Shown: positions 2,687-22,020 of the stretch, in pieces | Position numbering within the stretch: the stretch's first letter is position 1 | Layout: each line of letters starts with the position of its first letter | Virus record (IMG/VR): IMGVR_UViG_3300031974_004092 | Coordinates: 1-22,389 of that record | Direction: 5' to 3' (one strand) | Source: a virus | Length of the DNA: 22,389 bases | The notes under the pieces: model-generated | What the model was told of the DNA's origin: nothing | Databases searched by the model: none | Seen by the model: only the letters and a program-made list of their open reading frames with translations | Position numbers and translations under genes: made by a program

Positions 2687-3087
2687 TAGTGTATATCCTT
2701 TTTATTGACTTCTTCATACTTAAAGTATAATCTATCCTTTTTAATATGAAGTAGGCTGTTGTCTTTAAATAATTCTCGATCTAGTTCACAAAGAAGAAGG
2801 TCAAGAGTTTTGTCCCCAGTTGCTAAATAGTCCGCAAGCGAACGTAAAGAAGCCAACGCAACATACTGGGCTATGTCGCGAAAGCTGTGTTTATATGAGT
2901 GGTATAGAAGTATATCAGGATGAACTAAGAAACAGCTCCCCGAGAAGTCAAGATTAGCAAACTTAAAGATTTTATCGTGTTTATTACGCGGTATTTCTTT
3001 GTTTACTAATAATTTTATGACAAGATATATGGACGAAGGTGTTCCCTTAGTTACTTCAAATATCTTATTCCAATCATATAACAACAT
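2686..3087 (-). CDS. Hypothetical protein, first gene of the SSB-gp47-gp46 unit
   Basis: An unrecognised protein of up to 133 residues: a first half with hydrophobic segments (SSIYLVIKLLV, GSCFLVHPDILLYH), a helical middle (QYVALASLRSLADYLATG) and a charged C-terminus (YFKYEEVNKKDIH). No catalytic motif is evident. The 3' end is fused to the SSB start by TAATG. The 5' end is odd: the ATG at 3087 directly abuts the -10 hexamer of the promoter at 3088-3127, so a transcript from that promoter would begin inside or after the start codon. Either this gene is translated from read-through mRNA, or a start farther in is used; no good Shine-Dalgarno site was seen for a later start. By position it may take part in recombination or replication. 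Confidence 0.7.
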   Translation of the reverse strand: MLLYDWNKIFEVTKGTPSSIYLVIKLLVNKEIPRNKHDKIFKFANLDFSGSCFLVHPDILLYHSYKHSFRDIAQYVALASLRSLADYLATGDKTLDLLLCELDRELFKDNSLLHIKKDRLYFKYEEVNKKDIH

Positions 3088-3134: not shown

Positions 3135-4430
3135 TCAGAGCTGTTGAATGGAATAACCTTGTTTCATATAGTATCCCATTCTGTTAGAAGCCTGTCGTTG
3201 GGCTGTTTTGCCTTTTAAGTGAATATCAATAATCACCGGATCGCGTTTATTATCATGTTTCCTAACAACCCTTCCGATAAGCTGGGTAAGTAGTGGTTCA
3301 TTATTAATAGGAGTGGCCAAGATAAGGCAAGAAAGAGTGTTAACCGATATTCCCTCACTAAAAATAGCTTGAGTTCCGTAAAGTATGTTTTTAGTTCCAT
3401 GTAAAATCTCGTCTATTAGTGTTTCTCTGTCTTCATGCGCTACTTCACCCGTAACACATATGGAATTTTCACCAGTCAGTTCGGCGCAGCTTTTCAAAAA
3501 GTGAACTCGATCGGACACAACGAGCACTTTATGTCCTTTCGCTGCATATGCAGACGCCAACATTGCTACGGAGTGTCGATATTCGTCATTATTTGCGATT
3601 GCATTGACTCGTTTAGCCCAAGGAATATTTGCCCCGTCTGGAAAGCGCACTTCTGACCGATAAATGTGTATTTTCGGCGTTAAAAAGTTTTCTTTTGGCG
3701 GTTTGAAAATATTCGGACTGAAGTAGTCACGAAAAACTACGTGCTTTCCATCTTTGCGCTCAATTGTCCCAGACAAGCCAATCTTATATCGAGCATGGCT
3801 GGTATCAATAATTTTAGCGAAAGTGGGAGAGGAGACGTGATGCATTTCATCTAAAATAATCGTGCCAAACTCTTTCCGAATTTTATCAATGTTTCTATAA
3901 AGAGTTTGGGTATTACCAATACAAATAGGGCTATCGGTGTCAAAACTCCCGCTACCAATAATACCAGGTCTAATTCCATAAACTTTTTCCACTTCTTTTG
4001 CCCACTGATTTCGTAGTGGGACTGTGTGTGTAACCACAAGTGTTTTCTGTCCGAGTTTTCCCGCAATTGCGAGACCTGTAAATGTTTTACCCCAGCTCAC
4101 CCAAGCGTTGATAATACAGTTATCATCCAAGCTGTCATAGACCTCTTGTTGACTTGGCCGTAGCTCAAACGCAAATTTTGGAAAATCGGCAGGAATATTC
4201 AGACGCTTCTCTACGATATCGTAGCCGTCTGGAATAAGGTCTGTTCGTCCGATTGGTATGGATACCAGATTTTCGCGCACCCGTTGCAGATTCTTGATGA
4301 TCTGTGGAGGGTCGTTTGGGTTTTGTGTTGGTATTTTATAGGTGAGTTCGTCCGCGAGCTTTTTCTTCAACTCTGGAGTCACTTCCATAAAAATACGATT
4401 ACTTAATACCGCTTTCATAATTGTCTGCAT
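3135..4430 (-). CDS. uvsW: UvsW-like superfamily 2 DNA helicase
   Basis: A 431-residue SF2 helicase. RPSQQE (91-96) is the Q-like motif, AWVSWGKT (109-116) motif I, DEMHH (194-198) motif II (DExH), SGT (220-222) motif III, and QLIGRVVR near the C-terminus motif VI with arginine fingers. The ATP-binding loop is unusual, with Ala for the first Gly and SWGKT in place of GSGKT. Order, length and N-terminal extension fit the T4 UvsW/RecG-like helicases that remodel forks, unwind R-loops and help switch replication from origin- to recombination-dependent. The start at 4430 overlaps the alternative oxidase gene by 32 bases; an ATG at 4418 is an alternative. It is the last gene of the long block starting at the 11575 promoter. 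Confidence 0.9.
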   Translation of the reverse strand: MQTIMKAVLSNRIFMEVTPELKKKLADELTYKIPTQNPNDPPQIIKNLQRVRENLVSIPIGRTDLIPDGYDIVEKRLNIPADFPKFAFELRPSQQEVYDSLDDNCIINAWVSWGKTFTGLAIAGKLGQKTLVVTHTVPLRNQWAKEVEKVYGIRPGIIGSGSFDTDSPICIGNTQTLYRNIDKIRKEFGTIILDEMHHVSSPTFAKIIDTSHARYKIGLSGTIERKDGKHVVFRDYFSPNIFKPPKENFLTPKIHIYRSEVRFPDGANIPWAKRVNAIANNDEYRHSVAMLASAYAAKGHKVLVVSDRVHFLKSCAELTGENSICVTGEVAHEDRETLIDEILHGTKNILYGTQAIFSEGISVNTLSCLILATPINNEPLLTQLIGRVVRKHDNKRDPVIIDIHLKGKTAQRQASNRMGYYMKQGYSIQQL

Positions 4431-4983
4431 ACCTATGGTTTAAAATACTGTGAGTGCGTTCATCTTCGCGAATACAATGCAACATATCTCGTAGTGTTGC
4501 AGTGCCTGGTAGCCGGTAATATTCAATGGCAGCAAGAGGTGCTCGCACATTCTCTATATGCCCTTCGTCTATTTGTTTAATATAGTCTGTGTAGCTTATT
4601 ACGGCCTCTTCCTCAAAGTAGCCAATCATGCGATGTGCAGTTGTCTGCGAAATCATGTAAAGTGTAAAGTAAAATATTGAAAACAATATCTGTGCTACAA
4701 GAATTATGCCTTTTTCTACTGTAGTAGGCTTCGTTATGTGTAGCACAAATATTAAATGTTTTCGTTCGTTTTCTGCTTCTTCAAGCATATGGTGTATTTT
4801 AGTCCCGTAACCCTTTTTGAGAGTACGAAGACTTGCAAAATGAGTGAGCATTCCCGCAATCATGCCGGGCACACCCGCTACGGTCTCCAGAACTACTGCT
4901 CGATGACCATATCTCTCACGAAAGAACATATCGGCTGTAAACCGAAAGAACTTTGTCATAAATTTTGCAAAAAAATCACTCAT
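4399..4983 (-). CDS. aox: Alternative oxidase (diiron ubiquinol:oxygen oxidoreductase)
   Basis: A 194-residue protein with the signature set of the alternative oxidase family: LETVAGVPGM (E33), AENERKHL (E73, H76), FEEEAVISYT (E124-126, Tyr131) and REDERTH (E175, H178). These provide the four Glu and two His that hold the diiron site, plus the conserved Tyr. The AENER and VPGM forms resemble mitochondrial/proteobacterial AOX rather than the plastid/cyanophage PTOX form. The family oxidises ubiquinol and reduces oxygen to water without pumping protons, lying on the inner face of the cytoplasmic membrane. I chose ATG 4983 over 5007 because GAGGAAA lies just upstream of it and it overlaps the lipoprotein stop by only 8 bases. 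It is complete but N-terminally short. Neighbours are a lipoprotein and isocitrate lyase upstream and a helicase downstream. Confidence 0.93.
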   Translation of the reverse strand: MSDFFAKFMTKFFRFTADMFFRERYGHRAVVLETVAGVPGMIAGMLTHFASLRTLKKGYGTKIHHMLEEAENERKHLIFVLHITKPTTVEKGIILVAQILFSIFYFTLYMISQTTAHRMIGYFEEEAVISYTDYIKQIDEGHIENVRAPLAAIEYYRLPGTATLRDMLHCIREDERTHSILNHRYADNYESGIK

Positions 4984-5173
4984 TAGTTTCCTCATTGTAT
5001 AGGACACACCATAGTCGGGTTCTGTCCTCTGTGTAACATATCATACTACCATAGTACGGCCTACATACGTCTACAGGCTCTATTGTTGATTTATATTCTA
5101 TACAATCTTTATCTTCTTGCGTTGTAACACATCCCCCAAGAAGAATTACCGTTAATAATACATTAAGTTTCAT
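4976..5173 (-). CDS. Small lipoprotein between isocitrate lyase and alternative oxidase
   Basis: A 65-residue protein beginning with Lys, a hydrophobic stretch and the lipobox LGGC (Cys15), so it should be exported, lipidated and anchored to a membrane. The mature part is about 50 residues and holds four more Cys, which could form disulfides in the periplasm. GGAG lies just upstream of the ATG, in the 10-base gap after the isocitrate lyase stop, and the 3' end overlaps the alternative oxidase start. I do not recognise a family. Placement between two metabolic genes suggests it arrived with them or supports their function at the membrane; a spanin-like lysis role is possible but no partner is visible. 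Confidence 0.8.
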   Translation of the reverse strand: MKLNVLLTVILLGGCVTTQEDKDCIEYKSTIEPVDVCRPYYGSMICYTEDRTRLWCVLYNEETNE

Positions 5174-5183
5174 TCTCCAAGTC

Positions 5184-6413
5184 CTAGAACTGTGCTGTTT
5201 CTGTTGAACCCTTGAGCGCTTCGGTAGAACTCCCTAACGCCTTGGTAATTTCGTCAAAATACCCCACACCTACTTCTCGCTGGTGGCGAGTTGAAGTGTA
5301 TCCGTATTGTTCTGCTGCAAACTCCGCTTCTTGCAGGGTTGAGTATGCCAACATTCCGTCACTTTTATATTTACGTGCAAAATCAAATACTGCCATATTA
5401 GTCGAATGAAAGCCTCCAAGAGTGATAAACTGGAACTTGAACCCCATTTTACCTAACTCATGTTGAAAATCACGAAGTTCCGCATCTCCAGGAATGGACT
5501 GTCTCCAGTTAAAGCTCGGAGAGCAGTTATACGCTAACATTGCGTCGGGATTAGACCCTTTGACTGAATCAGCAAAACGCCGGGCGTCTTTGAGACATGG
5601 GGTGCTGGTTTCGCACCACACGAGGTCTGCGTATTGGGCATAGGCGGCACCTCGCTCACATCCCATTTCAAGACCCCCGTGGATTTGCCAGAACCCGTCA
5701 GATGTTCTGTTTTTGATGCTTGCTCCTGCCTGAGAGCTTCTACGTATCCACTTGGTATCCGCTGAACAATGATCGCTGCTGAGTAGCTGTGCGCTCTCTG
5801 CGTCTGTTCTCGCAATGATGAGTGTCTCTGTTCCACAAACGTCAGCAGCGAGACGAGCAGCGTTAAGATTCCTAATGGCATCACTAAGAGGAATAAGAAC
5901 TTTCCCTCCGAGATGTCCACACTTTTTGGCGGAGGCGAGTTGGTCTTCAAAGTGGACTCCTGCCGCTCCTGCTTCGATGAGATTTCGTGCCAGCTCATAG
6001 CTATTTAATACTCCCCCAAACCCTGCTTCCGCATCTGCCACGATAGGCGCGAAATCAAAGCCGTTCTCCGTCTCTGCATATTCGATCTGGTCTTGTCTGC
6101 GAAATGCGTTATTGATGTTACGCACCACAGACGGAACCGAATCGACTGGATAGAGAGATTGATCTGGATATACTTCATTAGACGAGTTGGCCGCAGCAGC
6201 AACTTGCCAACCTGAGCAATAGATAGCTTGAAGGCCGGCTTTAACGTGCTGCACAGCTTGCTGTCCATTGTAAGCGCCAAAGGTGTTAATGTATAAGTTT
6301 TCACTAAACAACTTCCTTAGCTTTACAGCCATGTCTCGAGCAATAGTGTGCTCAATTTTTTGTGTCCCCTGCAACTTTCTTACGGTCTCGGGGGTGTAGT
6401 CTCGTTTTTTCAT
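5184..6413 (-). CDS. aceA: Isocitrate lyase
   Basis: A 409-residue protein closely matching bacterial isocitrate lyase along its whole length. It cleaves isocitrate to glyoxylate and succinate, the first step of the glyoxylate shunt. Visible motifs: SGWQVA (67-72), VADAEAGFGG with Mg-site Asp127 and Glu129, the active-site loop KKCGHLGGK (163-171, catalytic Cys165), ARTDAE (R202), WCETSTP (266-272), YNCSPSFNW (295-303), FITLGGFH (Thr331) and the C-terminal ending ALKGSTETAQF that closes over the site. All catalytic residues I can place are intact. Compared with the roughly 430-residue bacterial enzymes it lacks about 25-30 N-terminal residues. Its ATG overlaps the PhoH stop (ATGA). No malate synthase is in the window. 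Expected in the host cytoplasm as a tetramer. Confidence 0.97.
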   Translation of the reverse strand: MKKRDYTPETVRKLQGTQKIEHTIARDMAVKLRKLFSENLYINTFGAYNGQQAVQHVKAGLQAIYCSGWQVAAAANSSNEVYPDQSLYPVDSVPSVVRNINNAFRRQDQIEYAETENGFDFAPIVADAEAGFGGVLNSYELARNLIEAGAAGVHFEDQLASAKKCGHLGGKVLIPLSDAIRNLNAARLAADVCGTETLIIARTDAESAQLLSSDHCSADTKWIRRSSQAGASIKNRTSDGFWQIHGGLEMGCERGAAYAQYADLVWCETSTPCLKDARRFADSVKGSNPDAMLAYNCSPSFNWRQSIPGDAELRDFQHELGKMGFKFQFITLGGFHSTNMAVFDFARKYKSDGMLAYSTLQEAEFAAEQYGYTSTRHQREVGVGYFDEITKALGSSTEALKGSTETAQF

Positions 6414-7069
6414 AAACCTAATTCCGTTTTTGCGGTTATGTAAGATTTAACAAAATTACTGCGAACGATGTCTTGAATCTCAAAGTCTACGAGATCAAAG
6501 TTGTCCATCGCTTTCAGTATCCTAATAAAATCCTTCAGTCCGTTTGTTCGTAGATCAGACTGTCGGAAGTCCCCACAGAAGATTACTCTACAACCTTGGC
6601 CTACTCGAGTAATAATTGAGTCCAACTCATGAAAAGTCATATTCTGGCACTCATCAATAAGTATTGTAGCATTTCGTAGAGTCACACCTCGCACAAACGA
6701 AGTAGTCATAAAATGCACTAAACCTTTGGTTTTAAGTATCTCGTAAGCATCGCCTCGTTGAAACAGCTCAATACAAATATCTTTGTAAGGCTCTTCATAG
6801 ACGTGTGCTTTTTCTTTCTCATTCCCCGGCAGAAAACCGATATCTCGTGTAGAGACGGCACTGCGAATAATTACTAGTTTTTGGTACTCTTGCTTTGCCA
6901 TGTCATCAAATGCTAAATAACATGAGATAAAAGTCTTGCCTGTTCCTGCTACTCCGTGTAGTACCAGGTTTTTCTCGCTCTCAAATGCTTTGAGCTGGTT
7001 TTGTGTTAAAGGGTCAATTTGTTGCAGGTCGAGGTTAGCGCCTGCGAGGGTTTTACTGCGTTTTCCCAT
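6410..7069 (-). CDS. phoH: PhoH-like P-loop ATPase
   Basis: A 219-residue protein with Walker A GVAGTGKT (39-46), the PhoH-type STRDIGFLPG segment (73-82), Walker B ILIDE (136-140), and a GDFRQSDL motif that corresponds to the sensor region. PhoH proteins are RNA/DNA-associated ATPases, very common in marine phages; their exact role during infection is unsettled. The gene is full length for the phage type. It lies 6 bases after the preceding gene's stop and shares ATGA with isocitrate lyase, so the metabolic enzyme is probably translationally coupled to it. In some bacteria phoH responds to phosphate starvation, but no Pho box is evident here. Confidence 0.95.
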   Translation of the reverse strand: MGKRSKTLAGANLDLQQIDPLTQNQLKAFESEKNLVLHGVAGTGKTFISCYLAFDDMAKQEYQKLVIIRSAVSTRDIGFLPGNEKEKAHVYEEPYKDICIELFQRGDAYEILKTKGLVHFMTTSFVRGVTLRNATILIDECQNMTFHELDSIITRVGQGCRVIFCGDFRQSDLRTNGLKDFIRILKAMDNFDLVDFEIQDIVRSNFVKSYITAKTELGL

Positions 7070-10647: not shown

Positions 10648-10949
10648 TAGTCTTCATCCACGCCAAAGCCAGCAGACGCAAGAGCGTCTCCGTCCCAATC
10701 GGTGAGAAAGTCATCTCCATCATCGTAGTCATCAAAGTAATCTGGCACTTCTTCACCAGAGCCATGCAATACTTCTTCTACTACAGTTTGAGTATACTGG
10801 TAGTAATCTGCATGTTCGTCATCAAAGAGATGAAAGTATTTTGACAGACGAGCAAGAGTAACGTCTGCGGCTTGGTAATCGCCTACATCCATATCTCGCT
10901 CAAGTATATCAAATAACTGTGTAATCTTTGGTAGTAATCTGCTGTTCAT
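10644..10949 (-). CDS. Acidic hypothetical protein between cytochrome c and primase
   Basis: About 101 residues from the ATG at 10949, which overlaps the cytochrome stop as ATGA; an upstream in-frame start at 11021 would run inside the cytochrome gene and looks non-native. The N-terminal part is helical (LLPKITQLFDILERD, ADVTLARLSKYF), and the C-terminal third is extremely acidic (DYFDDYDDGDDF and a final GVDEDY). Acidic tails like this occur in DNA-mimic or SSB-like proteins, but no family is recognised. It is coupled at both ends, to the cytochrome upstream and the primase downstream, and so is part of the replication operon. Confidence 0.8.
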   Translation of the reverse strand: MNSRLLPKITQLFDILERDMDVGDYQAADVTLARLSKYFHLFDDEHADYYQYTQTVVEEVLHGSGEEVPDYFDDYDDGDDFLTDWDGDALASAGFGVDEDY

Positions 10950-11254
10950 TTTGCTGGAAATCCCTCTTGAACAAAGACTCCTATAGTTCCAATTTGGCCG
11001 TCTGTTAAGCTCTGCGCCCAAGGAATCATCATAGCAGCTTGAGGGCCATCTTTGTGTCCCATCTTGTAGTGGAGTAGCTTGTTAATGATGTCGTCGGCAG
11101 ACTGGCCTGCAAGAGTTGGTCCAACCCCGCCTTGGCCCATAGCACCATGACAAGTGCTACACATAGCCCAAGGCTGTCGAATATTCTCAAAGCGGTCTTC
11201 TGCAGTAGCCACGGAAGTGGCGACAAGTAGTGTTGTTAATAATAGTGTTTTCAT
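10946..11254 (-). CDS. Exported monohaem class I c-type cytochrome
   Basis: A 102-residue protein with a Sec signal peptide (hydrophobic run LLLTTLLVATSVATA, predicted cleavage before EDRF) and one CxxCH haem site, CSTCH (C32, C35, H36). GVGPTLAGQS (44-52) and an AAMMIPWAQSLTDGQI segment with Met75/Met76 supply the usual class I Gly-Pro loop and axial Met, similar to c4/c5/c553-type domains. Haem would be attached in the periplasm by the host maturation system, and the protein would shuttle electrons to a terminal oxidase or other acceptor. Its ATG shares ATGA with the upstream small gene, and its stop shares ATGA with the acidic gene. A c-type cytochrome inside a phage replication operon is unusual. 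Confidence 0.93.
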   Translation of the reverse strand: MKTLLLTTLLVATSVATAEDRFENIRQPWAMCSTCHGAMGQGGVGPTLAGQSADDIINKLLHYKMGHKDGPQAAMMIPWAQSLTDGQIGTIGVFVQEGFPAK

Positions 11255-13760: not shown

Positions 13761-14516
13761 TTAGTTCTCCAAAAAAGATTTGAGATTTGTTACTATTGTA
13801 ACGCCAGTGTCTCTGGCTTGTCTAGTTTTAGCAGATTCAGTCCCACCTTCATTGATGAGAAAACCTACCTGTTTAGTAAGGCTGGATTTTACTTCGTAGC
13901 CCGCCATATTCAAGGCGTTAGTAGCATCAGCTTTGCTCTTGAAACTCTTCAAGCGTCCACTAATGCACACTGTGCCCTTACTCACAGTGGGCGGAGTTGT
14001 TTCAGAAAAATACCAACCATGAGGCATTACGCCTGCAAAAAAGCTAAGATTAGTGTCTAACCACTCTAATAAATTAGCTGTAGCCTTTGGCCCTAATCCG
14101 GCACGCTCACAAGTGTCTGCATTTATTTCATATATAGTTTTAACAGTATCAGACAGCTTCAGTGTTGCCGTTTTTCCGATTAATGGAATACCAAAAGCGG
14201 GTAAAAGTAGCTCAAGAGGAGCGTTAAATGAATTAACAATCTCGCTCCTGAGCTTGGAGGTCACTCTCTCGGAACCCAACGATGCTAAGATACTCTCGTC
14301 TGATGCGAGGTAAATTTCGGACGGGCAAGTCCAACCCAGCTTCCGAATAGAAGCAGGACCAAGACCTTTTATCTTCATAGTTTTTGCAAAGTGCTCCACA
14401 GACTTGTAAGCCTGCTCGCCGCAAAACGAAGACACGCAGTATAGTAAATCGTTCTTCCACACAAGTTCGCTGTCACAAGAAGGACAATGACTTGGGGCAA
14501 AGATAGATTGAAACAT
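13761..14516 (-). CDS. ligA: NAD+-dependent DNA ligase, C-terminal half (zinc finger, HhH, BRCT)
   Basis: A 251-residue protein matching the C-terminal part of bacterial LigA: a four-Cys zinc finger at the start (CPSC at 11-14, then C27 and C32), helix-hairpin-helix repeats (KIKGLGPASIRKLG, GIPLIGKTATLKL, AGLGPKATANLL) and a BRCT domain in the last 80 residues (TVCISGRLKSF, GYEVKSS, VTIVTNLKSFL). It has no catalytic lysine and must work with the separate adenylation half encoded upstream. The two are separated by 52 bases holding a complete promoter (14543-14583), so the break is not a sequencing frameshift. Split LigA subunits are known in some large phages. It seals nicks during replication. 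Confidence 0.92.
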   Translation of the reverse strand: MFQSIFAPSHCPSCDSELVWKNDLLYCVSSFCGEQAYKSVEHFAKTMKIKGLGPASIRKLGWTCPSEIYLASDESILASLGSERVTSKLRSEIVNSFNAPLELLLPAFGIPLIGKTATLKLSDTVKTIYEINADTCERAGLGPKATANLLEWLDTNLSFFAGVMPHGWYFSETTPPTVSKGTVCISGRLKSFKSKADATNALNMAGYEVKSSLTKQVGFLINEGGTESAKTRQARDTGVTIVTNLKSFLEN

Positions 14517-14542
14517 GAACTACTCCGATTAAGTGAAAGGAT

Positions 14543-14583
14543 ATTATACGACAGATCTGACCTAAATGTCAAGAACTATTTTT
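14543..14583 (-). promoter_or_regulatory. Sigma70-type promoter between the two ligase halves (family member 3)
   Basis: Minus strand: AAAAATAGTTC, TTGACA (14572-14567), 18-base spacer, TATAAT (14548-14543). The TGA inside the -35 hexamer is the stop codon of the ligase N-terminal half. It drives the ligase C-terminal half and the SANT-like gene. Confidence 0.92.
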
Positions 14584-15519
14584 CTCGACGTCCACTCGTC
14601 GAACGATTCGTGGAATGATCTCACCACTACGTATAACTTCAACTTGACAACCTATTTCTAGGTTAAGGGAGCGAATATACTCGATGTTGTGTAGAGTTGC
14701 GCGGCTCACTAGCGCATCTCCCACTTCGACTGGGCGTAAGATAGCAACAGGGCTCACGACCCCTGACTTGCCTACCTGCCACTCAACATCAAGCAATTCT
14801 GTAATAACCCCATCTTTCTGCTCCTTGAGAGCGAAAGCCCCTCGGGGGTGATGAGCTGTATACCCCATTTTATAGAAGGCAGAATAGCTATCGACTCTAA
14901 ACACCTCGCCATCCGTAGGATAGCCAGTTGCATCGAAGTGAGTAATAGTATTAAAACCTTCCTGGGTCAAACGGTCCATTGCTTCGGAAAGACGATCAAA
15001 GTCTACAAAGTCACCCTGAATATCGTATGCTACAAAAACAAGGTCTTTGCAACGAAAACGAAACTCATTCATGTCTTTGAGATTGAGCGACCCCGCCGCA
15101 AAGTTGCGAGCGTTTGTGATCGTATTGGGCGCTACGACCTCACCAGTAATCTGTATCTTAGACCGAATACCGATGTGAACAGGTGCCAGCTCTTCAAGCT
15201 TCAACGTAATATCTCTACCGAGATTACCGTCTCCACGAGTCAAAGCCTGTGCAAGATGTCCATTGATATACATCAAAGACACTGCGGCACCATCCAACTT
15301 AGGAGTTCGCACCATAGGCGATGCGACACCTTCTATAGCATTTAAATCAAAAACCTTCTGTAGAGAATACATCTTATATAGGTGTGGAATACCGTCAGTA
15401 ACAGTATGCCCTACCGTATCGTAGTTGTATATTCTAGCTAATGAATCAAACTCTGCATCCGAGAGTATCGGAGTGCCAGAGTAATACATTGCCGAAGCCT
15501 TTTCAAGAAAATGTTGCAT
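14569..15519 (-). CDS. ligA: NAD+-dependent DNA ligase, N-terminal half (adenylation and OB domains)
   Basis: A 316-residue protein. Residues 12-27 (YYSGTPILSDAEFDSL) match the Ia region that binds NMN. The catalytic motif is KLDG (Lys74, Asp76) in the nucleotidyltransferase domain, with LTRGDGNLGRDIT shortly after. The C-terminal part (KSGVVSPVAILRPVEV, VSRATLHN, IGCQVEVIRSGEIIPRI) is the OB fold. It stops at NSS and a TGA that is part of the next promoter, where normal LigA would run into its zinc finger. The N-terminus is shorter than bacterial LigA. It uses NAD+ to adenylate itself and then DNA 5'-phosphates. The promoter at 15545-15583 precedes it by 25 bases. Confidence 0.94.
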   Translation of the reverse strand: MQHFLEKASAMYYSGTPILSDAEFDSLARIYNYDTVGHTVTDGIPHLYKMYSLQKVFDLNAIEGVASPMVRTPKLDGAAVSLMYINGHLAQALTRGDGNLGRDITLKLEELAPVHIGIRSKIQITGEVVAPNTITNARNFAAGSLNLKDMNEFRFRCKDLVFVAYDIQGDFVDFDRLSEAMDRLTQEGFNTITHFDATGYPTDGEVFRVDSYSAFYKMGYTAHHPRGAFALKEQKDGVITELLDVEWQVGKSGVVSPVAILRPVEVGDALVSRATLHNIEYIRSLNLEIGCQVEVIRSGEIIPRIVRRVDVEKNSS

Positions 15520-19438: not shown

Positions 19439-20068
19439 TTACTCCTTAAATATTATGTAATGTGTATCATAATCCATTTGGTTGACTTGATAGCCTTCGG
19501 TATTATACACGACATAACCGAACTCTAAAAAATACTCTTGAAGGCGGTCTCGTTCTTTTTGATCCTTTTCCCAGTTGCTTACTTGGTGAGTTTCTAGCAG
19601 TATTGTAAGGTTATTTGCGGCGAGAGTTTCCGACGCAGAGTAAAAAATCTCGTATTCACCGCCCTCAATATCACACTTCATCAGTGATATATTTTTACCT
19701 ATACAAAACGCATCTAAAGTAGTAGAAGGCACAACAATAGTATTTTCTAATGAGTGTCCCCAAGTTCCATGAGTAGCTAAATCCCCCATTATCGAGTGGC
19801 CTCCAGAGTCATAGCCATTTCCTATGAGAGTGCAAGGCTGTCCGTTTTGGCTCAAAGCTAAAGGAACTACCACAACATTATTCAATGTAGAAGTGTTCTC
19901 ATTTAAAACAGCAATGTTTTCTGGGTGTGGCTCAAACGCATATACTTTTTGAAATTTTTGACTCATAGTTTGAGTGTATATACCATAATTTGCACCAATA
20001 TCTAAAGCACACCCATAGGATCTAGGCAAGGATTTTAGATACGTGCTAATGAACTCTTCTTGTCTCAT
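19439..20068 (-). CDS. FkbM-family SAM-dependent methyltransferase
   Basis: A 209-residue protein with motif I ALDIGANYGIYTQ (17-29), VYAFEPHPEN (43-52, the acidic residue that binds the SAM ribose), TLDAF and the FkbM hallmark KCDIEGGEYEIF. The family O-methylates sugars or small molecules; in phages and their hosts it is often found with surface-glycan genes. The start overlaps the DUF3310 stop by 4 bases and the next gene starts 4 bases after the stop, so it lies inside the early-type unit driven from 20961-20992. What it methylates here (host surface sugar, phage capsid glycan, modified base) cannot be told from sequence. Confidence 0.9.
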   Translation of the reverse strand: MRQEEFISTYLKSLPRSYGCALDIGANYGIYTQTMSQKFQKVYAFEPHPENIAVLNENTSTLNNVVVVPLALSQNGQPCTLIGNGYDSGGHSIMGDLATHGTWGHSLENTIVVPSTTLDAFCIGKNISLMKCDIEGGEYEIFYSASETLAANNLTILLETHQVSNWEKDQKERDRLQEYFLEFGYVVYNTEGYQVNQMDYDTHYIIFKE

Positions 20069-20358
20069 CCATCCATCCTAGGGTCATCCCCTATCATCAT
20101 GCGAAGATACCAAATTGCTTTCTGCACATCTTGTTTTTTATTCTGCTTGTTCTTGCAGCGCCAAATATATTTAAATGCGTTGAGGTGGCAATACTCTTCA
20201 AAGCCCTCTGCAGAAGTAATTTGCTTCATAGCATCAATACATTCTACATCATCACGCTTATAGTGTGCAGGACTATTTACTGGGTCATGCACTACGCGGG
20301 CAGGGCCTTTAAAGCTGAGTCCATCCCCTTCTTCTGATCTAGTCCAACCTTCTTTCAT
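20065..20358 (-). CDS. DUF3310 domain protein
   Basis: A 97-residue protein with the whole DUF3310 pattern: PVNSPAHYKRDDVECIDAM, NAFKYIWRCKNKQNKKQDVQ and KAIWYLRMMIG. This small domain is widespread in phages of many hosts, often near replication or nucleotide genes, and has no settled function; some database names call it nucleotide kinase-like without proof. The N-terminal about 25 residues are specific to this protein. Its ATG overlaps the stop of the upstream gene by 4 bases and its stop overlaps the FkbM start, indicating a coupled operon. Confidence 0.92.
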   Translation of the reverse strand: MKEGWTRSEEGDGLSFKGPARVVHDPVNSPAHYKRDDVECIDAMKQITSAEGFEEYCHLNAFKYIWRCKNKQNKKQDVQKAIWYLRMMIGDDPRMDG

Positions 20359-20954
20359 TGTGCTGTAATCCTCTGTTCGTAGTCAGCAAGAGACTCATCC
20401 CACCAATCGGGAGTTGGTCGATGAGACCAGCTGGCGAAAGTAGCCTTGTCGAGGTGATAATAATCACGATAAGACTGAATTGGATCATCATAGTTTTTGA
20501 GTATCTCAGGCATTGCAAGTCCAAACGTGGTGAACCCCACTCGTTCAAGGTTAACTGGGTCGGGCAACTTGTTGATAACTTGCCAGAAGGACTTGTGTTC
20601 TTTGCCGTAGCGATATCTAAATTCCTCTGCGAGTGCATGAGCATAGCACCATGTCCACTCGTAATTGTCTAGTGATGATCTTGTCCATATTGTGCAGGGA
20701 TGATTATACATCATACCAAGGTATGGGGTGAGTTGTCTTTCTTCGGGCTTGAGAGGCTTCTCAAGCTTTTTGTATTCGTTGAGCACTGCTGCTTCGTCTT
20801 TTTCAAGAGCACGAGGAACAAACCCGAGTAGAGTATCTACCCATATGGCAGTGCATAGTAATTGTGCGGCCTCGAGTATCATCTTGTTGACGTGCTTATC
20901 AACATGATACTCGGCGCACTTATCTAAATCATTATCTAAGTAAAATAAATTCAT
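20355..20954 (-). CDS. Conserved phage protein (HVDKHVxKM family)
   Basis: A 199-residue protein opening with FYLDNDLDKCAEYHVDKH and VNKMILEAAQLLCTA, followed by YNHPCTIWTRSS, NYEWTWCYAHALAEE and RYGKEHKSFW. I recognise this pattern from many tailed phages, mostly annotated as hypothetical. His, Asp and Trp residues are spaced as in a small enzyme, but I know no demonstrated reaction. It is the first gene after the promoter at 20961-20992; that -10 lies just 6-7 bases before the ATG, so the leader is very short. No other domain seen. Confidence 0.87.
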   Translation of the reverse strand: MNLFYLDNDLDKCAEYHVDKHVNKMILEAAQLLCTAIWVDTLLGFVPRALEKDEAAVLNEYKKLEKPLKPEERQLTPYLGMMYNHPCTIWTRSSLDNYEWTWCYAHALAEEFRYRYGKEHKSFWQVINKLPDPVNLERVGFTTFGLAMPEILKNYDDPIQSYRDYYHLDKATFASWSHRPTPDWWDESLADYEQRITAQ

Positions 20955-20960
20955 GAGAGT

Positions 20961-20992
20961 ATTATACCGGTTTTAGCAATAAAAGTCAAGTA
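20961..20992 (-). promoter_or_regulatory. Sigma70-type promoter (family member 8, divergent upstream block)
   Basis: Minus strand: TTAATAC, TTGACT (20989-20984), 17-base spacer, TATAAT (20966-20961). The upstream A-block is less conserved than in the other seven. It lies just after the peroxiredoxin stop and drives the HVDKHVxKM protein, DUF3310, FkbM and followers. Confidence 0.82.
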
Positions 20993-21571
20993 TTAATTGC
21001 CACGTATCCTATCAAGTATATACTCTGGGTTTGTGTAGAGGTAAGGATCCTCTTTACAATTGTCTTCACGACCTTCTTCGATGAACCAGTCTTCGATGCT
21101 ACCATTGTCTACGATACAGGCGTATCTCCATGAACGACGACCAAAGCCAAGATTGTCTTTGTCTACAGTCATATTCATAGCATCTGTGAACTTGCAAGCA
21201 CCGTCAGGAATTACTTGAACGTGCTCAAGGTTATTTGCTTTCGCCCAAGCATTACATACAAATGCATCATTGACTGTCATACATACGATGCCAGTAATGC
21301 CTTCGTCGTAAAATACTCGTGCAAGTTGCTCAAAGGTAGGTAGTTGGTAGGTTGAACAGGTTGGCGTGAAAGCGCCTGGCAGGGAGAACATAAGAATACG
21401 CTCACCTGCAAAAATATCCCATGTATTTACGTCAAGCCACTCATACTGCTTTGTCTCTGGGTTAAATATTCGAGTGTGGAAAGTTACGGATGGAACCATC
21501 TCGGGCAATGCTCTCCAATACCCTGTTTCTTCATACTGATGTCGTTCGTGCTGCGTGCAATAAATTGCCAT
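20993..21571 (-). CDS. Peroxiredoxin (Prx5/AhpE-like thiol peroxidase)
   Basis: A 192-residue protein from ATG 21571, two bases after the lysozyme stop; the in-frame extension to 21670 lies within the lysozyme gene and looks non-native. The catalytic motif PGAFTPTC gives Pro65, Thr69 and peroxidatic Cys72, and RSWRY (146-150) supplies the conserved Arg. SVTFHTRIF, IVCMTVNDAFVCNAW and NMTVDKDNLGFG complete the Prx5-type fold. It should reduce hydrogen and organic peroxides in the cytoplasm using host glutathione/glutaredoxin or thioredoxin. No fused glutaredoxin domain is present. It may protect the cell against oxidants late in infection. It is an auxiliary metabolic gene next to lysis genes. 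Confidence 0.93.
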   Translation of the reverse strand: MAIYCTQHERHQYEETGYWRALPEMVPSVTFHTRIFNPETKQYEWLDVNTWDIFAGERILMFSLPGAFTPTCSTYQLPTFEQLARVFYDEGITGIVCMTVNDAFVCNAWAKANNLEHVQVIPDGACKFTDAMNMTVDKDNLGFGRRSWRYACIVDNGSIEDWFIEEGREDNCKEDPYLYTNPEYILDRIRGN

Positions 21572-21573
21572 TA

Positions 21574-22020
21574 CTATACTTCCTCTAGTCTTACCATTAA
21601 TCTTTCTGCTCGGTTGCCAACTTGCTTGTGCCAACGAGAGTCTCGGCCTTCTACAGCCGCAGATGCCCACTCACCACATTCAAGGTGTGCGTTCATCTTT
21701 TTAAATTTTCCTAGACGTGGACGTCCAAGATTAAACATCATATTTACTAAAATTTCTTGAACTTTTCCAGGAAATCCTTCCCAGATGTCTGCACCATAAA
21801 GAGCTACGCACTCGCTCAAAGCCACGTCGAGATCGCTGTTAAAACACTCAAGTGTGCGCTCGACTGATACGGGCTGTCCGACTTCGTATCCGTGCTCTGG
21901 ATCTGACTCACGCACGAGATGTCCAACTCCGAAGGTTTTATACCCAAGATGGTCCAAATAAATTTCATAGACGACTCCTTCGTCAATTTTCAGTTGCTCA
22001 TAAACTGCTTTTCTATTCAT
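21574..22020 (-). CDS. T4-type lysozyme (GH24 endolysin)
   Basis: A 148-residue protein whose first 35 residues align with T4 lysozyme: KIDEGVVYEIYLDHLGYKTFGVGHL. Catalytic residues are Glu14, Asp23 and Thr29, with the same spacing as T4 E11, D20 and T26. LVNMMFNLGRPRLGKFKKM and AERLMVRLEEV match the C-terminal lobe. There is no signal peptide, so release to the peptidoglycan would need a holin, not seen in this window. GGAG precedes the ATG by about 6 bases, after a GC-rich hairpin. It cleaves the peptidoglycan glycan strand to lyse the host. It could also be a virion-associated lysozyme, but the short length fits a free endolysin. Confidence 0.95.
   Translation of the reverse strand: MNRKAVYEQLKIDEGVVYEIYLDHLGYKTFGVGHLVRESDPEHGYEVGQPVSVERTLECFNSDLDVALSECVALYGADIWEGFPGKVQEILVNMMFNLGRPRLGKFKKMNAHLECGEWASAAVEGRDSRWHKQVGNRAERLMVRLEEV

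Follow-up and report, generated by a model that had tools for sequence, protein, structure and literature searches.

A putative mobile cassette of isocitrate lyase and alternative oxidase genes in tailed phages

Why should a phage keep an enzyme of central carbon metabolism and a terminal oxidase among its replication genes? The question is raised by IMG/VR virus record IMGVR_UViG_3300031974_004092, whose 22,389 bases were analyzed in full and are called the window here. Read along its minus strand, DNA polymerase A (9821-7554) is followed by a short open reading frame (ORF), a PhoH-like ATPase (6410..7069; Pfam PhoH, phrog_170), an aceA-like isocitrate lyase (ICL) of 409 amino acids (5184..6413), a lipoprotein-like ORF of 65 amino acids (4976..5173), an alternative oxidase (AOX, a ubiquinol oxidase) of 194 amino acids (4399..4983) and a UvsW-like DNA helicase (3135..4430; phrog_16 DNA helicase, ResIII/Helicase_C). 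An earlier, sequence-only reading of this DNA had proposed that the three genes between PhoH and the helicase form a compact metabolic cassette, in which succinate made by ICL feeds succinate dehydrogenase and AOX oxidizes the ubiquinol thus formed. The layout that it described is exact in gene order, strand and junctions. The end of PhoH (6410) and the ICL ATG (6413) overlap as ATGA, a 10-base gap (GACTTGGAGA) containing the ribosome-binding site of the lipoprotein ORF separates the ICL end (5184) from the lipoprotein start (5173), and the AOX ATG (4983), with GAGGA ahead of it, lies in an 8-base overlap with the lipoprotein stop. The 3' end of AOX also overlaps the start of the helicase gene (ATG 4430 or 4418), which had gone unmentioned. 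A promoter scan of the window gave no excess over shuffled sequences (21 vs 17.3), so that it is the gene overlaps only that suggest co-transcription of the cassette. Terminator-like sites exceeded those in shuffles (12 vs 5.7), and one of them, with a weak T tail, lies inside AOX (4945-4931, minus strand).

Both enzymes are intact and under constraint. The window ICL scores 600.8 bits on the NCBIfam PRK15063 equivalog (cut-off 562) and also matches Pfam PF00463. From residue 4 to its end it aligns with solved ICLs, whose N-termini run ∼20-30 residues longer, and the active-site motifs SGW, YPDQSLYP, KKCGH (residue 163) and NCSPSFNW are all present. Profile and catalytic motif thus identify the gene as an isocitrate lyase of predicted activity. 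The AOX reaches 216.8 bits on PF01786 (cut-off 22.7), and the phage AOX profile matches solved mitochondrial AOX chains. Its diiron motifs LET, NERxH, EEE and RxDExxH are invariant among 15 aligned viral AOXs, and the ligands E33, E73, H76, E124, E175 and H178 are invariant in phage alignment A1; by profile and diiron motifs it is a PF01786 alternative oxidase, predicted to oxidize quinol. Independent IMG/VR contigs carry the two genes at the same location with 81-93% (ICL) and 84-87% (AOX) protein identity. When the window is compared with related contigs, the ratio of nonsynonymous to synonymous substitution rates (dN/dS) lies at 0.055-0.12 in ICL and 0.066-0.10 in AOX. The phage polymerase has similar values (0.046-0.093), indicating that both enzymes are maintained by selection and that the arrangement is not due to chance. 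Since the window is a virus record with phage replication genes, these metabolic genes lie on a genuine phage genome and by location are auxiliary metabolic genes, with a presumed action in the host.

A lack of co-occurrence in related phages, which the sequence-only reading had named as the outcome that would count against it, is clearly not what was found. Among the 2.9 million contigs of IMG/VR, 361 stretches contained ICL relatives and 538 contained relatives of the phage AOX. Co-occurrence was scored in 45 long records whose ICL is closely related (at least 71% identity), and 24 of these also encode AOX. In 17 of the 24 pairs no more than 1.4 kb lies between the two genes; two pairs are 9-10 kb apart and five are 16-20 kb apart. 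Expressed as density, there are 8.4 AOX genes per 100 kb within 2.5 kb of an ICL, compared with 7 AOX genes in the ∼1,330 kb beyond. Because lineages are not independent, we regard these figures as a strong tendency and not as a p-value.

Placement within the replication operon, which the sequence-only reading had stressed, is not conserved even among close relatives. Contigs L013 and L014 share the backbone of the window (polymerase 81-87%, UvsW 90-93%) and hold both genes elsewhere, in the order lysozyme, AOX, peroxiredoxin, g199, ICL, g97 (clade C). Their stretch upstream of UvsW has neither ICL nor AOX, and PhoH was found there only in L014. The window shows the reverse arrangement, its lysozyme-peroxiredoxin-g199-g97 stretch (20065..22020, minus strand; peroxiredoxin at 20993..21670, Pfam Redoxin, phrog_2281) being an uninterrupted, empty version of this alternative site. 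L006 and L014 have polymerases that are 93% alike, yet their AOXs are only 63% alike and are sited differently. Conversely, the backbone of L022 is remote (polymerase 64-66%, DnaB 52-59%, UvsW 56-61%; 50-66% overall for polA, DnaB, UvsW, SSB and primase), yet this contig carries an ICL-lipoprotein-cytochrome c-AOX cassette that closely matches that of L004 (ICL 91%, cytochrome c 91%, AOX 81%). Across comparisons the L022 cassette ranges over 85-91% for ICL and 80-82% for AOX, and its ICL nests within the ICL clade of the window. The cassette occurs both on polymerase-A phages and on T4-type phages (polymerase B, clamp loader), and the contigs of relatives carry terminase, portal, structural or T4 replication genes. 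Taken together, the presence of the pair at differing sites and on unrelated backbones, along with a near-identical cassette in a distant phage, argues that ICL-AOX is a mobile, selected metabolic cassette. In a clade B contig (L244, G011) a peroxiredoxin at 5016-5591 fills the PhoH-UvsW site that holds ICL-AOX in the window, which marks the junction as a hot spot for redox genes.

The phylogenies separate the phage enzymes from their bacterial relatives. A single clade, distinct from the bacterial ICLs, unites the 66 ICLs that are at least 65% identical to that of the window, all of them on phage or phage-like contigs. Close ICLs in viral contigs are 62-100% identical to the window ICL, and a sample of 658 alpha- and gammaproteobacterial genomes gave a best bacterial match of 62%. 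In a 139-kb T4-like contig (L075), which belongs to a more distant ICL group (63% identical), ICL lies directly 3' of a ribonucleotide-reductase-like small subunit and AOX is absent. In the AOX tree every ICL-linked AOX falls within a 48-row phage-only group (SH-aLRT 94). The ICL-bearing rows alone were rejected as one clade (p-AU 3.6e-43), because contig fragments and a few ICL-free AOX phages are interspersed among them. The other side of the tree combines SAR86, Porticoccaceae and other bacteria with ICL-free AOX contigs, some of which may be bacterial or prophage. The bacterial AOXs of SAR86, SAR92/Porticoccaceae and Limnobacter resemble the window AOX (54-60% identical). The bacterial loci differ, however, in their surroundings. 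An inherited bacterial aceA-aox operon was not found among the 80 closest genome loci, and an ICL of this family was absent from the vicinity of AOX in all of them except for a distant 31% ICL match (L223) and a short phage-like contig binned in a metagenome-assembled genome (L232). The latter, a 6-kb contig of the gammaproteobacterial genome Nau_16 with ICL, AOX and a membrane protein, resembles a phage fragment; bacterial AOX and ICL counts from metagenomes may include phage genes.

The compact three-gene cassette holds up in that ICL and AOX are real, intact and constrained, but its boundary was drawn too narrowly and the lipoprotein is not part of the core. The putative lipoprotein has a signal peptide, a lipobox cysteine conserved without exception in 13 homologues and a structure model of a two-strand hairpin. 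It matches nothing in Pfam or PHROGs, the latter having no family for ICL, AOX or the cytochrome either. Because this ORF evolves fast (dN/dS ∼0.5) and is missing from L006, where AOX directly follows ICL, it is a loose, dispensable accessory. Other genes recur instead. The window encodes a small c-type cytochrome (10946..11254, minus strand; Pfam Cytochrom_C, 25.7 bits vs 21.3) with a signal peptide and a CSTCH heme site (CxxCH at residue 32). Homologues of this protein are part of the cassette itself in L004, L022, L028, L030, L053 and L054, and a cytochrome c was detected in 11 of 20 records tested. In many phages a protein of ∼110 amino acids with two predicted membrane helices lies 3' of ICL or next to AOX, and its homologues are also found near AOX in SAR86 and in a Cellvibrionales genome. 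No Pfam match and no fold match (model pLDDT 77) was obtained for this protein, which we regard as a candidate AOX partner; members of the family lie at L049:9209-9538, L023:2566-2901, L164:1485-1736, L194:3275-3571 and L231:7020-7346. PsiE (PF06146) is directly 5' of ICL in several phages, including one T4-like group, and a peroxiredoxin adjoins AOX in clade C. IscU/NifU-like Fe-S assembly genes are also present in ICL-AOX phages, at L046:4442-4822, where the gene adjoins AOX, and at 40804-41175 of OQ984149.1. The core of the cassette is therefore ICL and AOX, and its recurrent partners are the c-type cytochrome, the two-helix membrane protein, PsiE, peroxiredoxin and the small lipoprotein.

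What might such a cassette do during infection? With regard to expression timing, flux direction and coupling of ICL with AOX, we infer the following scheme. Phage ICL would divert isocitrate before it reaches the two decarboxylating steps, yielding succinate and glyoxylate, the latter being consumed by host malate synthase or by transamination to glycine. Carbon skeletons for nucleotides would be retained and less NADH produced. Succinate would feed the quinone pool through host succinate dehydrogenase, bypassing complex I, and phage AOX would pass the quinol electrons straight to oxygen without proton pumping by the bc1/terminal-oxidase branch. Carbon flow could then persist where that branch or ATP synthesis is limiting in the host. 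A host-side precedent for this logic comes from Fe-limited marine bacteria, for which it has been proposed that electrons from the glyoxylate shunt enter by way of succinate dehydrogenase and so bypass complex I (PMC11069385). The "short circuit" of ICL and AOX is plausible from gene content, but the idea that electrons from ICL-made succinate go specifically to AOX is not supported as stated, because AOX would drain quinol from any dehydrogenase and the short circuit would be one use among others. The carbon-conserving flow likewise survives in part. ICL itself is intact, but a full carbon-conserving shunt requires malate synthase, which the ICL phage records examined lack, so the host must supply it, and the complete phage-encoded shunt (aceBA) finds no support. 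On balance we favor, with somewhat better than even confidence, a mobile ICL-AOX auxiliary metabolic cassette that works by this scheme in several unrelated tailed-phage lineages, whose hosts are probably heterotrophic proteobacteria.

Several observations weigh against this explanation. A search of 50 ICL phage records, genomes of 137-160 kb included, detected no malate synthase (PF01274). The pairs 16-20 kb apart belong to the T4-like group of phage C48C1 or its likely relatives. Many contigs are fragments, and the lineages are not independent. ICL was absent from all 48 AOX contigs of a set selected for having no ICL nearby, and AOX from all five members of the more distant ICL group (62-65%), so that neither gene strictly requires the other. 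One might therefore suppose that the two are not functionally paired and merely land in shared accessory-gene hot spots, with ICL serving biosynthesis (glyoxylate to glycine for purines, and succinate) and AOX acting as an independent redox valve. The existence of AOX-only and ICL-only phages and the missing malate synthase fit this possibility, as does the arrival of peroxiredoxin (L244), PhoH and small ORFs at the same two sites. It fits poorly with the joint movement of ICL and AOX between sites and backbones, and the gathering of ICL-linked AOXs in one phage-only group is not readily expected from independent landings. We give independent landing about one chance in four.

Of the explanations that keep the pair together, one supposes that the module chiefly cuts the iron cost of respiration during infection, as ICL would leave less NADH for complex I, which is rich in iron, and AOX, with two Fe, would substitute for the heme/copper branch. 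This would be a special case of the favored scheme, differing in its selective reason. In marine heterotrophs under Fe limitation the genes of the glyoxylate shunt go up (PMC11069385), a link with Fe limitation has been drawn for PTOX-related flow in cyanobacteria (PMC3037559), and IscU/NifU-like genes occur beside AOX in L046 and in C48C1. The cassette often adds the heme protein cytochrome c, however, and the route still requires succinate dehydrogenase, itself an Fe-S/heme enzyme. We regard iron sparing as a possible but rather unlikely motive. We are slightly more doubtful of an overflow under phosphate limitation, in which AOX would sustain carbon flow past a phosphate-starved ATP synthase and PhoH and PsiE would mark a phosphate-stress program. 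PsiE directly 5' of ICL and PhoH flanking the cassette in the window are what such a program predicts, but PhoH is a common phage gene that stays put when the cassette is elsewhere (L243), and the function of PsiE is itself uncertain. Host contamination, or a decayed and functionless moron, is refuted on present evidence. Bacterial AOX relatives do exist at 54-61% identity in SAR86 and others, but in many contigs the genes lie within a phage replication operon, relatives carry terminase/portal or T4 genes, viral ICLs reach identities (62-100%) that the sampled bacterial ones (at most 62%) do not, and a dN/dS of ∼0.1 argues against decay.

The closest known parallel to the ICL-AOX cassette is the plastocyanin (petE)-PTOX-gnd-zwf cluster of cyanophages, described as a possible mobile cassette with varied genome positions (Sullivan et al. 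2010, PMC3037559), which we read directly in Synechococcus phage Syn9. PTOX is a PF01786 member, and in both systems a mobile quinol oxidase of this family is joined by a soluble electron carrier and a central-carbon enzyme. The two differ in that the oxidase here is a proteobacterial-type AOX (233 bits on the AOX profile for the C48C1 enzyme vs 44 bits for Syn9 PTOX), with no cyanophage PTOX match by tblastn. The carrier is a c-type cytochrome rather than plastocyanin, the carbon enzyme is isocitrate lyase rather than the pentose-phosphate dehydrogenases, and the hosts are presumably heterotrophs; in place of plastocyanin, gnd and zwf, the neighbors are ICL, the lipoprotein and cytochrome c. 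A bolder proposal is that in aquatic phages of heterotrophs ICL, AOX, cytochrome c and the two-helix protein make up a mobile respiratory island. Acting as one unit, it would convert the TCA cycle and electron chain of the infected cell into a carbon-saving, proton-decoupled pathway. The island would then be a separately evolved heterotroph counterpart of the PTOX/plastocyanin cassette, and the membrane protein would be a new partner of AOX. We advance this tentatively, with confidence well short of even.

Glyoxylate-shunt genes have been reported in marine phages before, as aceA/aceB in Pacific viromes (Hurwitz 2013, PMC4053976), as an aceBA operon in a 179-kb viral genome (Nishimura 2017, PMC5332604) and as ICL in Ross Ice Shelf viruses (PMC10721903). 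These reports share isocitrate lyase with the present phages but make no mention of alternative oxidase, whereas the ICL described here is partnered by AOX and cytochrome c and lacks malate synthase. Phage C48C1 (OQ984149.1) is the sole record of the annotated collection with both genes (ICL 75%, AOX 55% identical); there they lie 17 kb apart, and both are annotated as 'hypothetical protein'. A literature search, largely outside subscription journals and bioRxiv preprints, returned no paper on an ICL-AOX phage module or naming C48C1. Alternative oxidase is mentioned in a paper on prasinoviruses, which infect eukaryotic algae (PMC12584671). It is the ICL-AOX pairing in a phage cassette that appears to be new, mobile auxiliary metabolic cassettes as such being already known.

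A nucleotide search of the whole window against phage records gave no match. Two further features were noted outside the cassette. A perfect TTGACA-17-TATAAT promoter match (3116-3088, minus strand) lies directly 5' of the ORF at 3087, dividing the operon between the helicase and its SSB/SbcD-like end. The NAD-dependent DNA ligase is apparently split into two ORFs (13761-15519, minus strand). One of these (14569-15519) has the adenylation and OB domains; the ORF that follows it (13761-14516) has no Pfam match and co-occurs with it in relatives.

Phage control of respiration has been well argued for phototrophic hosts but little described for heterotrophs, the main respirers of aquatic systems. 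Aquatic phages with these genes probably rewire the respiration of their hosts, much like cyanophages do with photosynthesis. If a recurrent, transferable ICL-AOX cassette does act as proposed, infection would alter the amount of organic carbon respired and the amount of oxygen consumed with no gain in ATP.

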